A DNA stretch of 64,000 nucleotides, taken from positions 62,001 to 126,000 of the forward strand of contig PEAM01000002.1 of assembly GCA_002753565.1 (NCBI GenBank), given 5' to 3'. The position numbers were made by a program, and so were the translations under genes. The notes under the pieces were generated by a model that saw only the letters and a program-made list of their open reading frames with translations, had not been told where the DNA came from and made no database searches. This document shows positions 15,598 through 21,757 of this stretch, piece after piece. How positions within the stretch are numbered: the stretch's first letter is position 1; each line of letters starts with the position of its first letter. The DNA is from Magnetococcales bacterium. Lineage in GTDB: Bacteria > Pseudomonadota > Magnetococcia > Magnetococcales > JADFYX01.

Positions 15598-16259
15598 CAC
15601 TTGGTATCAGACGACCCTTGCTCGGAGGAAGCCGTGGGTTGCCATCGTCGATTCCATCGAGGTATCAGAGCCGGAACAGCCTGCTGATAGCGGCGGTATG
15701 ACGCTCCGTAGAGAGCCAACAATCTTTTCTCTTCCCAGTTTAAACCGATCAGAAGGTAGAGGGTGGCAAACAGGTTGGTGATCACCATGGCTTCGGTCAT
15801 GGGCCGAAACCAGATAATCAGCAAGGTGCCACTATAGAGGGGATGACGAACAAACTGATGGGGTAGAGAGAAAACCATGGGCTCTTCTCCAATTCTATGT
15901 TTGGATAAACCGGCCCAAATCTGCTTTAACCCGAGGAAGCGCCAGATGTCATAAGCGGTAAAACTCCAGATCAAGACCATGAGACCAACCCCCTGGATAG
16001 AGAGAAAGGACCACTTCATCATACCAATCGGTTGAAAAAATGGCACAAATGCTAGATTATGTCGAGCAAAGGAGAAGACTTCCATGATGGCGAAAACAGA
16101 GACACCGTTAAAAATAAGCCGCTCAAACGACGCAAAAGGGCCAAGAATTCGCCGCCATGCCCCTTTAAATGCTTCCGATGCCATGACAGAGTGGAGAAGG
16201 CCGAAAAGGAGCCAAAACAGGCCATAGACAGTAATATCGACACTATCTGATTGCATCAT
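15597..16259 (-). CDS. Isoprenylcysteine/phospholipid methyltransferase-like membrane protein
   Basis: A 220-residue protein with about five membrane helices. The C-terminal SAM-binding pattern typical of ICMT/PEMT and MddA-type proteins is present: RHPLYSGTLLIIW, then LNWEEKRLLALYGASYRRY. Substrates in the family range from lipids and prenylated groups to methanethiol; none can be assigned here. ATG 16259 is chosen because the frame upstream (to 16367) is polar and overlaps the fumarase promoter region. Confidence 0.7.
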   Translation of the reverse strand: MMQSDSVDITVYGLFWLLFGLLHSVMASEAFKGAWRRILGPFASFERLIFNGVSVFAIMEVFSFARHNLAFVPFFQPIGMMKWSFLSIQGVGLMVLIWSFTAYDIWRFLGLKQIWAGLSKHRIGEEPMVFSLPHQFVRHPLYSGTLLIIWFRPMTEAMVITNLFATLYLLIGLNWEEKRLLALYGASYRRYQQAVPALIPRWNRRWQPTASSEQGSSDTK

Positions 16260-16405
16260 CTCAAGAGGTCCAATAGGATCTTTGCCATTGACTGGAACGT
16301 CCAGATGTGACAGTTGAGGTCTTAACCCACAATGCAAGGAGCAAATCCTATCCTTCTCCTGCAACAACTCAATTTCATGATAACCATTTAAGGGAGTGTG
16401 ACGCT

Positions 16406-18022
16406 ATGCCCGAATTTAAATATACTGAGGTTCTCAACCCAGGACCTGACGGGGCCGAGTATCTCTCCTTGACCCGCGATCATGTCTCCTTGGAACGATT
16501 CAAAACCGAGGATATCATCCATGTCAGGCCGGAGGGGTTGACACTCCTATCCGAAAAGGCATTCCATGAGGCGTCCCACCTTTTGCGCGCCAGCCATCTT
16601 CAGCAGTTACGTACCATTCTCGATGATGCCGAATCTTCTGAAAATGATCGTTATGTCGCCTTGGAACTGCTCAAAAATGCCAATATTGCTGCGGGCAGGG
16701 TCCTGCCCAGTTGTCAAGATACTGGTACCGCCATGGTTATTGGTAAAAAAGGTCACCGGGTCTGGACCGGAGGAGGGGATAAGATGGCCCTTTCCAAAGG
16801 GATTTTCAATACCTATACCAAAACCAATCTGCGCTATTCTCAAGTGGCTCCCCTCACCACCTATAACGAGAAAAATACCGGCAACAACCTCCCCGCTCAG
16901 ATCGATATCGAGGCCACGGACGGTGAGACCTATAAATTTCTTTTTATGGCAAAAGGGGGCGGATCAGCCAATAAAACCTTCTTGTATCAACAGACAAAAG
17001 CCCTGTTGACACCGGAGAAGCTGGCAGCCTTTTTATTGGATAAAATCAAAACATTGGGCACCTCTGCCTGTCCTCCCTACCATCTGGCGGTGGTGATTGG
17101 CGGTCTCTCTCCGGAAATGAACCTGAAGACGGTCAAGTTGGCCTCGGCCCGCTATCTGGATCGCCTCCCATCCCAAGGGGATGGGTTGGGTTCTGCCCTG
17201 CGGGATCGTGTTTTAGAAGAGCAGATTTTAACCATGACTCGAAATATCGGCATGGGGGCACAATTTGGTGGAAAATATTTTGCTCACGATGTTCGGGTTA
17301 TCCGCCTGCCCCGTCATGGTGCCTCCTGTCCGGTAGGGATTGGGGTCTCTTGTTCGGCGGATCGGAATATTCTTGGTCGGGTCGATCGGGAAGGGATCTG
17401 GCTTGAAGCGCTAGAGACCGATCCGGCCCGCTTTCTTCCAGATGCCGAACCCGAAGCGCTGAGCAGTACAGTTGTCCATATCGACCTGAACCAACCCATG
17501 AAAAAGATCCGGGCTGTTCTTTCCGATCTTCCGGTGACCACCCGTGTCATGTTGACCGGCCCCATTATTGTGGCTCGGGATATTGCCCATGCCAAAATTC
17601 AGGAGCGACTGGAGCAGGGAGAGGGGATGCCGGACTATTTTCAAAACCATGTGGTGTACTATGCCGGACCGGCCAAAACACCGGAAGGTCTCTCTTCTGG
17701 CTCTTTTGGGCCGACAACGGCGGGTCGTATGGACAGTTATGTGGAAGAGTTTCAAAAAAATGGTGGGTCGTATGTCATGTTGGCCAAGGGCAATCGCAGC
17801 CAGCAGGTAACGGATGCCTGTCAAAAATATGGGGGATTCTATTTAGGCTCCATTGGGGGTGCTGCGGCCCGTCTGGCCAAGGACAGTATTCGCAAAATTG
17901 AGGTGATCGACTACCCGGAGTTGGGTATGGAGGCGGTGCATCGTATACAAGTGGAAAATTTCCCTGCCTTTATCATTGTTGATGACAAAGGCAACGATTT
18001 TTTTGCCCAATTTAATCTGTAG
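16406..18022 (+). CDS. fumA: Class I fumarate hydratase (4Fe-4S)
   Basis: This oxygen-sensitive iron-sulfur enzyme hydrates fumarate to malate in the TCA cycle. Its 538 residues include both the alpha-type N-terminal half ([42 protein letters not shown]) and the beta-type C-terminal half ([38 protein letters not shown]), as in single-chain FumA/FumB. Cluster cysteines are in [15 protein letters not shown] and [12 protein letters not shown] 16406 has GGGAG upstream; the in-frame start at 16307 would overlap the divergent gene. A full repeat copy begins two bases after the stop. Confidence 0.95.
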
Positions 18023-18024
18023 GT

Positions 18025-18210
18025 ATAGAGATTTCAAACCAAATTTGTACAAAACGATTGCGGATGGGTCTGGGAAGGCATGAACCTCTTCCCAGCGGGT
18101 TTGGGCAGCGCAAAAGGTCCTAAGCCTTTGACTTTGCTTTTTTATTTTTAAAAGCGTGGGGGTTTTTGGGCCTGCAAGGCCTCCCAAGGTGTTGACTTTG
18201 CCTTAAACTG
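18025..18210 (+). repeat. Intergenic repeat family, copy 5 (full form, reference copy)
   Basis: In order it contains ATAGAGATTTCAAACC, TACAAAACGATTGCGG, ATGGGTCTGGGAAGGC, the inverted CTTCCCAGCGGGTTTGGG, CCTTTGACTTTGCTTTT, AAAAGCGTGGGGGTTT, GCAAGGCCTCCCAAGG and GACTTTGCCTTAAACTG. It starts two bases after the fumarase stop. Confidence 0.9.
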
Positions 18211-18267
18211 TTATAGCCTGCATCGGTTCTGTTTTTTGTCCCAAATTTTAAACAGCACGTTGGTCTG

Positions 18268-18284
18268 GGGGGCTGCAAGCCCCC
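18268..18284. other. GC-rich hairpin in the repeat region
   Basis: A 7-bp perfect stem GGGGGCT/AGCCCCC with a 3-base loop lies downstream of the micro-ORF on the minus strand. It may terminate it, but no T-run follows. Confidence 0.4.
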
Positions 18285-18330
18285 TCCCAGGAGTTACGGA
18301 CCATTTTTCAATGAGAATGACAACAATCAA

Positions 18331-18429
18331 CTACAGGCTGCGCCAGATATCCCGCTGTGGGCGGACACCGAATTCACCGATGGCAAAGGTAAGAACGGAA
18401 AAAGAGAAGAGGATCAATAGGGTTTCCAT
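18331..18429 (-). CDS. Candidate 32-residue single-helix membrane micro-protein
   Basis: A 33-codon minus-strand frame starting METLLILFSFSVLTFAIGEF and ending RPQRDIWRSL: a hydrophobic helix followed by a basic tail. AAGGA lies seven bases before the ATG, and a perfect TATAAT (18464-18459) about 30 bases upstream would give a leader of roughly 20 bases. The -35 region is poor. I cannot name a family; single-helix accessory subunits of membrane complexes have this size and shape. It is isolated inside a repeat-rich gap, and no other gene is convincing there. Confidence 0.45.
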   Translation of the reverse strand: METLLILFSFSVLTFAIGEFGVRPQRDIWRSL

Positions 18430-18458
18430 GGTTATTTCCTTTATTTGGTCTGTTTAAT

Positions 18459-18464
18459 ATTATA
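18459..18464 (-). promoter_or_regulatory. -10 box upstream of the micro-ORF
   Basis: A perfect TATAAT on the minus strand in an AT-rich context, without a recognisable -35 hexamer at 16-18 bases. Confidence 0.4.
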
Positions 18465-18484
18465 AAGCTCGCCCTATGTAGCGA

Positions 18485-18970
18485 GTCTTTGCTTTGCTTT
18501 ATTAAGGTGGTGTTAACTTCATAACCTACCATCACAAACAGGGTAGAGAGACAGGTAAATGGGCTTCATCTTTCAGTGGTTCTTGCTCTATTGCCCTTGA
18601 CTATTTCAAGAGCAATAACCCTGCCGGAATTGGGCTGTTTTAAGGGATGAAAAGGGGATTGGGGAGGGAGTTGGTGTTTAATTTCTAAGGATTTTGAATG
18701 GTTGCTTGATTATTTTTCCAGCCCGTTTTTTTTATCAAAAGCGTGATCTTCCATTCGATAAATTCCGTAACAAAAGTCAACCAAAATCCATGGCCTATAA
18801 AAAAAACGGGGTTATGCTGCCTGAAGGTACAATTTCTGACACTTTCTATAACGGCACACAAAAAAACCATTGCAGGGGGTCCGGGAGGGTCTCCGGCGGA
18901 GTTTGGGGCAGCGCTCCCTTCATCTAAAAAGCGGGCTTGCAGTGGCCAGGCACCAGTTGTTTTTGCAAGA
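18485..18970. other. Gene-poor stretch with a second GC-rich repeat-like block
   Basis: No convincing coding frame is seen. It includes a 7-bp stem-loop (18583-18589 with 18609-18615). A block at about 18876-18920 (GGGGGTCCGGGAGGGTCTCC, GGCGGAG, GGGGCAGCGCTCCC) looks like a separate GC-rich repeat type. Short frames on both strands are repeat-derived or of atypical composition. Confidence 0.5.
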
Positions 18971-19074
18971 CTCCTTAGAACCTTGGGCGCTGCCTAAACC
19001 CTCTGGAAAGATATGGATGCCTTCCCAGACCCATCCGCAATCGTTTTGTACAAATTTGGTTTGAAATCTCTGTA
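18971..19074 (-). repeat. Intergenic repeat family, copy 6 (5' module plus hairpin, minus orientation)
   Basis: Read on the minus strand it begins CAGAGATTTCAAACC, contains GATTGCGGATGGGTCTGGGA and the hairpin block, and ends near GGCGCCCAAGG. It lies 83 bases downstream of the argH stop in the same orientation as argH. Confidence 0.85.
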
Positions 19075-19157
19075 GAAACAAAAAACAAAACCATGGGCGT
19101 TGCCCTTACCGACCAGGGACGGGCGCCCCCCTAGAGGTTTTTTTCTGAAAGTTAACC

Positions 19158-20543
19158 TCAAGCAATACGTTTGGTCGCCTCTACCAAAGCCTTTTTGACT
19201 GTTTCAAACGCTGTGCCCCCAAGGGAAACCCGAGCATTAACCGATGATTGAATGGTTAAAATAGCAGCGACATCCGATTGAATACGTGGATCTACCTCTT
19301 GCATTTGAGCCAGGGTAAGCTGATCCAGTGTCAGGTTTTGCTCCACACAGACACGGACAATTCGTCCTGAAATAGCGTGGGCCTCTCGAAAAGGGATGTT
19401 TTTTCTCACCAGATAATCAGCCAAATCCGTAGCCGTGGTAAACCCTTCGCCAGCCGCAGCCAACATGGCCTCTCGTCGCACTTGAATACCCGGAACCAAG
19501 TCGGTAAAAACCCGCAAAACACCCTGAACCGTGTCAACCGTATCAAAAATCGGCTCTTTGTCTTCTTGCATGTCTCGATTATACGCCAGAGGCAGACCCT
19601 TCATCAGGGTAAGAAGAGCCAGAAGATTGCCTGTGACACGCCCGGTCTTGCCTCGAACCAACTCTGGTACGTCTGGGTTTTTCTTCTGTGGCATGATGCT
19701 GGAACCGGTACAAAAAGCGTCCGATAACTCAACAAAACCAAAAGCAGGAGATGACCATAAAATCAACTCTTCTGAAAAGCGGGAAAAATGGGTCATGATC
19801 AACGCCGCTGCACTGGCCAACTCGACTGCAAAATCCCGATCCGATACAGCATCCAAAGAGTTTTGACAAATACCCTCAAAATCCAACTGGTCCGCTACCC
19901 AAACCCGATCCACCGGAAAAGGGGTGCCCGCCAGAGCCGCAGACCCCAGAGGGAGCTGGTTGAGTCGCTTGCGTAGATCGATCAAGCGAGCATAATCTCG
20001 ATCCAACATTTCGAAATAGGCAAGAAGATGGTGGGCAAAACTGATGGGTTGTGCGTTTTGCAGGTGGGTAAAGCCGGGTAGAATGGTCTCGATGTGCTGT
20101 TGAGCAAGAGCCAGCAGGTTGGTCTGTACACCCCGAATTCCCACCCCCATGGCATCTACCTCATCCCGAAGATAGAGGCGGATATCGGTGGCGACCTGAT
20201 CGTTGCGAGAGCGAGCCGTATGCAACTTGCCAGCTACCGGTCCAATCAGCTCCCGTAGTCTGCTCTCCACATGCATGTGGATATCTTCCAAGGCATCCGA
20301 AAAAGCCAACGTGCCCTGCTCCAGCTCCTCCTGCACCCGATCCAAACCCGCCGCAATCTGCTCTGCCTCCTCCGGAGTAATGATCCCCTGACGGCCCAAC
20401 ATGCGGCAATGAACCTTGGAAGCCCGAATATCATGACGAAACAGGCGGGAATCGTAGGCGATGGAAGAGGAGAAAGCCTCGACAAACGCATCGGTAGATT
20501 GAGAAAACCGCCCCCCCCATAATTTGGCTGGGGGAGAACTCAT
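19158..20543 (-). CDS. argH: Argininosuccinate lyase
   Basis: It catalyses the last step of arginine synthesis, splitting argininosuccinate to arginine and fumarate. It has 461 residues, the standard length. The fumarase/aspartase superfamily signature [12 protein letters not shown] is intact, as are the substrate segments [13 protein letters not shown] and [10 protein letters not shown]. Its ATG overlaps the argG stop by four bases (ATGA). It is last in the transcribed order argD-argF-argG-argH. Confidence 0.97.
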
Positions 20544-21757
20544 GTGCCTTTCCGCAGCATGGCAGCAATGCGAATCCGCAAGGCGTTCAGCTTGATAAAG
20601 CCGGTGGCATCCGCCTGGTTATAAGCCCCTTGATCATCTTCAAAGGTGGCGATGGCCGGGTCAAACAGGCTTTTTTCTGATTTGCGCCCAACAACAATGA
20701 CGTTGCCCTTATAGAGCTTCATTCGAACCACACCACTCACATGAACTTGAGAAGCATCAATCATGGTTTGGATCATCTCCCGCTCTGGGCTGAACCAGTA
20801 GCCATTATAGACCAAGGTGGCATACCGTGGCACCAACTCATCTTTCAGATGGGCAACCTCCCGGTCCAAAGTGAGAGACTCCAGCGCCCGATGGGCAACA
20901 CCCAGGATGGTACCGCCCGGTGTCTCGTAGACACCTCGGGATTTCATGCCCACATAACGGTTTTCTACCAGATCCAAGCGCCCGATGCCGTTCTCTCCCC
21001 CCAGTTGATTGAGGCGAGCCAGCAGGTTGGCCGGAGAGAGGGGTTGACCGTCAATGGCTACCGGATCTCCCTTTTCGAAGGAGAGTTCAATATAGGTGGC
21101 CTTGTCTGGCGCCCGCTCTGGGGAGACCGACAAGACAAACATATCCTCATCCGGCTCGGCAAACGGATCCTCCAGCACTTTTCCCTCAAAGGAGATGTGC
21201 AGCAGATTGCGATCCATGGAGTAGGGGGACTCACCCCGCTTGTCTCGTGGAACCGGAATGTTATGCTTGTCCGCATAGGCCAACAGCTTGTCTCGGGAGG
21301 TTAAGTCCCACTCCCGCCATGGGGCAATTACCTTGATATCCGGCCGATGGGCATAATAGCCCAACTCAAAGCGGACCTGATCGTTCCCCTTGCCCGTGGA
21401 GCCATGAGAGACCGCCTCGGCATGGGTTTCGTTGGCAATTTCAATTTGACGTTTGGCAATCAAGGGGCGTGCAATGGAGGTACCCAGGTGGTAGACCCCC
21501 TCATAGAGAGCGTTGGCCCGATACATGGGGAAGACATAATCCCGAACAAACTCCTCTTTCAGATCCTCTACATAGATCTCTCTGATGCCAAAATTTTCTG
21601 CCTTGACCCGAGCCTCTTCCAGCTCTTTTCCCTGACCCAGGTCAGCCGCAAAGGCCACCACTTCGCACTGATATTCATCTTGAAGCCATTTGAGAATGAT
21701 AGAGGTATCCAAACCGCCGGAATAGGCCAAAACCACTTTGTTGATCTGCTGGGACAT
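20540..21757 (-). CDS. argG: Argininosuccinate synthase
   Basis: It condenses citrulline and aspartate using ATP. It has 405 residues. The PP-loop [14 protein letters not shown] is at the N-terminus, with downstream family segments [15 protein letters not shown] and [16 protein letters not shown] 21757 gives the canonical N-terminus; the frame extends further upstream to 21922 but with non-coding character. A 61-base spacer separates it from argF. Confidence 0.97.

Follow-up and report, generated by a model that had tools for sequence, protein, structure and literature searches.

A gene of only 32 codons, of a size that genome annotation tends to pass over and the product of which is predicted to be a single-helix membrane micro-protein, very probably lies in the gap between the fumarase gene (16307-18022, plus strand) and argH (19158-20543, minus strand) in the window, i.e. 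the whole 64,000-nt stretch of DNA that was analysed; this assessment is based on sequence comparison. The gene is 99 nt long with its stop codon. It is read from the minus strand and, as the preliminary description had reported, begins with ATG and carries AAGGA seven bases ahead. The window belongs to a genome of 3.87 Mb (G000; 92 contigs, 99% complete), with which four congeners, G001, G002, G003 and G004, were compared (completeness 82%, 65%, 82% and 90%, respectively). The coordinates of the features are given in Table 1.

Table 1. Features in and around the micro-protein gene (window coordinates).
Feature	Position	Strand	Basis	Remark
Micro-protein gene, 32 codons + TAG	18429..18331	minus	ATG frame, G003 homologue, codon-position pattern, start-anchored null, hydropathy, AlphaFold2	
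AAGGA, ribosome-binding-site candidate	18437-18441	minus	sequence	7 nt 5' of ATG
Perfect TATAAT, candidate -10 box	18459-18464	minus	sequence	
GC-rich dyad, 6 pairs by scan	18468-18485	minus	terminator-like match on both strands	directly upstream of TATAAT
7-bp GC-rich hairpin without U run	18268-18284	minus	sequence and fold	~46 nt after micro-protein stop
Dispersed repeat copy, unit ~185-190 bp	18024-18212		repeat comparison	adjoins the gene, not part of it
Inverted partial copy of dispersed repeat, 101 nt, 89%	18974-19074		repeat comparison	other side of the gene

When the peptide was searched against 61 genomes, its own included, five were matched at E ≤ 1, and the meaningful matches were those in G000 and G003. 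The G003 relative (E = 6.4e-6, 59% over 27 aa), found in this one of the four congeners, is a 28-residue product encoded by 87 nt with the stop codon on contig JADFZU010000003.1 of 'Magnetococcales bacterium isolate nJSWbin3', and 16 of 27 residues are identical in the two peptides from the initiator methionine on. The other three matches (L003, L004 and L005; E 0.25-0.93) lie inside longer frames or have no aligned start and were rejected. At the DNA level, 47 of the 81 coding bases are identical, with identities at 15, 22 and 10 of 27 first, second and third codon positions, respectively, and the upstream bases agree at 15 of 60 positions, the level of random sequence. The dN of the pair is 0.36, and dS, which could not be computed (returned as -1), is taken as saturated. 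The start and a ribosome-binding site are also conserved, GAGGTG in G003 standing at a similar distance to AAGGA. On these alignments the codon-position pattern is a coding signature and, because the amino acids are retained in the congener although the DNA on either side is unrelated, the micro-protein is almost certainly encoded. The search for relatives that the preliminary description had proposed thus returned a conserved copy with free third codon positions.

The relationship was further assessed by a start-anchored comparison covering 23,377 distinct 27-mers from 114 sequences (555,580 bases, loci partly overlapping), in which the window's own peptide scored 133, the G003 peptide 89 and the best of the other 23,375 27-mers 27. 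When the G003 peptide was shuffled 100,000 times with the composition of helix and tail kept, the highest score was 61 and 89 was never reached. As only two members are known, the conservation rests on one pair.

Taken alone, without its homologue, the 32-aa frame could be of chance origin. When the 1135-bp gap was shuffled 2000 times with dinucleotides preserved, there were 8.6 ATG starts of at least 25 aa per shuffle, nested ones counted, against 10 in the real gap, and 21% of the shuffles held at least one such start with a Shine-Dalgarno-like word. The same kind of start with an upstream TATAAT occurred in 0.25% of the shuffles, a figure that overstates significance because the criteria were set after the feature was seen. 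The promoter matches, likewise at shuffle level, and the failure to find a copy in three of the four congeners are in keeping with a chance frame that is no gene. However, the homology to the G003 peptide, which raises the gene above chance, the codon-position pattern and the shared start at an unrelated genomic place make such an origin barely credible, and with the G003 match it is refuted, barring an artefact in that match such as cross-binning.

The spacing of the TATAAT box to the ATG predicts a leader of ~23 nt, close to the leader of about 20 bases noted previously, and from this candidate box transcription would start at about 18452-18453. No good -35 sequence accompanies the box, and the promoter is absent from the list returned by a sigma-70 scan of 17800-19300. 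Hence, the 'own promoter' of the preliminary description is borne out for its perfect -10 element and not for the remainder, and seems to have been over-read, a weak promoter with only the -10 good being suggested by the sequence. The scan gave two sites, compared with a shuffle mean of 1.9, and one of these (18738-18709, minus strand) aims at the micro-protein frame from ~280 nt upstream. A scan for terminator-like structures found two, against 2.4 in shuffles. The GC-rich dyad next to the TATAAT box is possibly an operator or a chance match, as far as its sequence indicates, and the hairpin beyond the stop codon, which falls inside a segment (18244-18323) that partly recurs elsewhere, may form the 3' end of the micro-protein transcript or be part of a repeat. 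No match to Rfam was obtained for 16000-21000 at E 1, and ARAGORN identified no tRNA in the window. A perfect 14-nt inverted repeat, CCCGTTTTTTTTAT, occupies 18722-18735 and 18797-18810, with 61 nt between its arms.

The frame had been described as lying inside a repeat cluster, and copies of a dispersed repeat are indeed present on both sides of it. At least 41 near-full-length copies of the first 101 bases of this repeat occur in G000, the two window copies included; as 121 candidates were seen at first look and 40 were scored, this count is a minimum. The second part of the repeat unit is also present in all four congeners. Matches to window positions 18125-18973, nearly all of them to the repeat part, number at least 31 in G002, at least 42 in G004, 7 in G001 and 6 in G003. 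The segment 18244-18323, just past the micro-protein stop, partly recurs beside two other repeat copies (L091, 1305-1381; L084, 1474-1502).

In G003, the gene is found in a 731-bp gap between a gene for a Rieske-domain protein and a hemerythrin-GGDEF gene, and in both carriers it stands alone in its intergenic gap. The flanking genes differ between G000 and G003, and the conserved neighbour sought on the suggestion of the preliminary description is therefore absent. All 11 G000 matches to the hemerythrin-GGDEF gene cover the GGDEF part only, from residue 188 onward, and a pairing of the micro-protein with this gene was rejected. Around the relatives of the hemerythrin-GGDEF gene in G001 (74%) and G004 (51%), no copy was found; the best match there, of 12 residues (L116, E 0.023) inside an open stretch of 15 residues, was read as chance.

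The hemerythrin-GGDEF gene starts 211 bp downstream of the micro-protein gene in G003 and on the same strand which, together with a short frame behind a short leader, would suit a regulatory role towards a downstream gene, as a leader peptide or translated decoy. In the window, however, the next minus-strand frame of at least 150 aa begins at 16367, ~2 kb off and beyond the oppositely oriented fumarase gene, and the conserved signal is an amino acid sequence with free third positions. This role is accordingly considered very improbable.

In the window (16307-20543), the 3' ends of the fumarase gene and argH point at each other across 1.1 kb, and in G001, G002 and G004 (L050, L051 and L052) it is their 5' ends that do so, across ~9 kb. 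This difference in arrangement is a rearrangement, possibly at the repeat cluster. Because the two genes are oriented differently in these congeners, there is no syntenic gap to read. Around argH and the fumarase gene of G001, G002 and G004, no listed match was convincing as a decayed copy of the micro-protein gene; the best other match among those listed (E 0.097) falls at the L004 site in G001, which had been rejected before.

As to the product, the single helix with a basic tail noted earlier is supported by prediction. The most hydrophobic stretch comprises residues 4-18, and in the two members hydropathy over 15 residues peaks at 2.39 and 2.36. AlphaFold2, run on the two-sequence pair, gave a single helix over residues 2-31 with a mean pLDDT of 82.4 (94 for residues 1-10, 92 for 11-20, and 64 and 67 beyond), a model that from two sequences shows little beyond helix propensity. 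The polar residues after the helix are kept, and the segment E-[FY]-G-x-R-P-x-R-D is conserved in both members at residues 19-27. The natural reading, under the positive-inside rule, is that the micro-protein would have its helix in the membrane and its basic tail in the cytoplasm. No family was found for it in Pfam, NCBIfam or PADLOC at a limit of E 10, HMMER filters dropping most matches above ~0.1. Two PHROGs matches (E 0.17 and 0.27) were obtained for the G003 peptide and none for the window peptide. A profile search of solved structures returned 32 distinct sequences at E ≤ 10, nearly all of them the eukaryotic ribosomal protein uS4, which aligns to residues 17-31 (best E 0.024 with the two-row profile, 1.6 with the single sequence). 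This similarity was dismissed as chance, being confined to the tail, found in a distant domain of life and obtained with a two-row profile.

The distribution of the gene was examined more widely. The two-row profile matched 13 of 48 genomes of the order at E ≤ 0.5, strongly in G000 and G003 only. The 12 weak matches are spread over 11 genomes, have E values of 0.0114-0.498 and extend over 8-21 of the 32 positions, one of them (L061) being the L003 site again; they were rejected as judged from the match table, and no convincing relative was seen with this profile in the other 46 genomes of the order. Across the phylum, in a sample that overlaps the order set, 2 of 398 genomes match at E 0.005, with none convincing in the other 396. 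The tail motif, with up to three mismatches allowed, occurs once in G000, once in G003 and not in G001, G002 or G004, and the gene is single copy in each carrier. A motif scan of genome contigs, in a collection that may omit the window's own genome, yielded six stretches, namely the G003 contig and five others in which no start is followed by a hydrophobic helix in frame. Neither viral contigs nor plasmids gave a match to the micro-protein, and two phage records, at E 6 and 10, were rejected as weak.

As regards conservation in close relatives, the lack of which had been named beforehand as a ground for refuting the gene, the gene is kept in G003, and no copy was seen in the other three congeners. 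Given that these are 82, 65 and 90% complete, it is more probable that the gene is truly missing from one or more of them than that assembly gaps hide it in all three. As judged by a 316-residue open frame beside fixQ, G003 is the congener most distant from G000 (69.9% versus 71.5, 73.7 and 74.7%). The opposite strand of the fixQ locus carries another open frame, which is probably not coding; there G003 shows 40.4% over 225 residues, above G001 and G002. Inheritance from a common ancestor with later losses and movement of the gene both fit this history.

The shape of the product, with one predicted helix and a charged tail, had led to its comparison with small accessory subunits of respiratory or transport complexes, and this shape is what favours a subunit of a known respiratory complex or ion pump, such as CydX, KdpF or CcoQ. 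The micro-protein resembles CydX in size and in having one helix, and presumably also in a glutamate near the helix end. However, cydA (PF01654) has no match in the G000 or G003 assemblies, being found in 2 of the 48 order genomes, neither of them a carrier, and kdpA (PF03814) is absent from the G000-G004 assemblies though present in 20 of the 48. The control searches for cydA and kdpA were matched in 10 and 5 of 14 genomes, respectively. As both carriers' assemblies are without cydA and kdpA, the CydX and KdpF readings fail, and count as refuted provided that neither assembly has a gap at those loci; at 82% completeness, the negatives for G003 are weaker than those for G000. The CcoQ reading fails because a separate FixQ/CcoQ (PF05545) scoring over the cut-off is present in all five genomes of the genus. 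With the lack of a Pfam match, which also sets the micro-protein apart from CydX, and of an NCBIfam match, an accessory role of this kind is distinctly unlikely, and the resemblance drawn in the preliminary description found no support for the three subunits covered.

The strongest competing reading is a type I-like toxic peptide, the helix of which would depolarise the membrane when overproduced and the synthesis of which would be silenced by an antisense RNA. The small size, the single hydrophobic predicted helix, the solo intergenic position at unrelated places in G000 and G003 and the patchy distribution fit such a peptide. DinQ of E. coli, as portrayed in an excerpt of PMC3567139, is a 27-aa toxic peptide with a single membrane span, encoded in an 823-bp intergenic region, and is a close parallel in layout: 27 compared with 28-32 residues, a single hydrophobic helix and a solo gene in a large intergenic gap. 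The same excerpt gives the complementarity between dinQ and agrB as 30 of 31 nt. In the window, however, neither the leader nor the frame is repeated exactly over 11 nt or more within ~1 kb, and G003 has one 11-nt direct match only; hence, as far as exact matches were searched, there is nothing like the dinQ/agrB complementarity, and the adjacent antisense element that marks DinQ was not found. Each carrier has one copy, and no promoter on the opposite (plus) strand was listed by the scan of 17800-19300, though an antisense RNA overlapping the frame may exist. A toxic peptide is therefore regarded as unlikely.

The reading that we favour, at slightly better than even, is one in which a small orphan membrane protein uses its conserved surface segment to modulate a partner in the membrane. 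The mRNA would start at the -10 box with a short leader, and the peptide would insert in the inner membrane and leave its arginine-bearing tail on the cytoplasmic side, as the positive-inside rule suggests. At the membrane surface, the E-[FY]-G-x-R-P-x-R-D segment would dock on a larger membrane protein and modulate it, in a manner resembling the small regulatory membrane peptides of other bacteria, and the partner gene need not be encoded next door. As no copy was found in three other congeners, any interaction with a partner would be dispensable or lineage-specific. More tentatively, and somewhat short of an even chance, the two members may represent a new orphan family of membrane micro-proteins confined to one Magnetococcales genus, in which the cytoplasmic segment recognises a membrane partner and the gene stays, moves or is lost irrespective of its neighbours.

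One congener can thus suffice for recognising a 32-codon gene in a little-studied lineage, given the codon-position pattern and a start that is shared although the surroundings are unrelated. The small membrane proteins, many members of which are still without an assigned function, gain an unannotated family, the practical importance of which will stay modest as long as neither a partner nor a phenotype has been found. In an excerpt of PMC10903887, small membrane proteins are delimited by an open reading frame of 60-180 nt, a membrane-anchoring segment of 15-30 aa and conservation in another organism. The micro-protein genes measure 99 and 87 nt with the stop codon, and conservation is provided by G003, the one relative. 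As to an anchoring segment, the hydropathy and the AlphaFold2 helix are in agreement, both being predictions. Unlike the named members of this class, the micro-protein has no Pfam or NCBIfam match and no partner gene alongside, and its two members belong to one genus. It nevertheless shares with AcrZ, CcmD, CydX and CcoQ, as these are presented in that excerpt, a gene of 60-180 nt, one predicted helix of membrane length, conservation elsewhere and an intergenic location.
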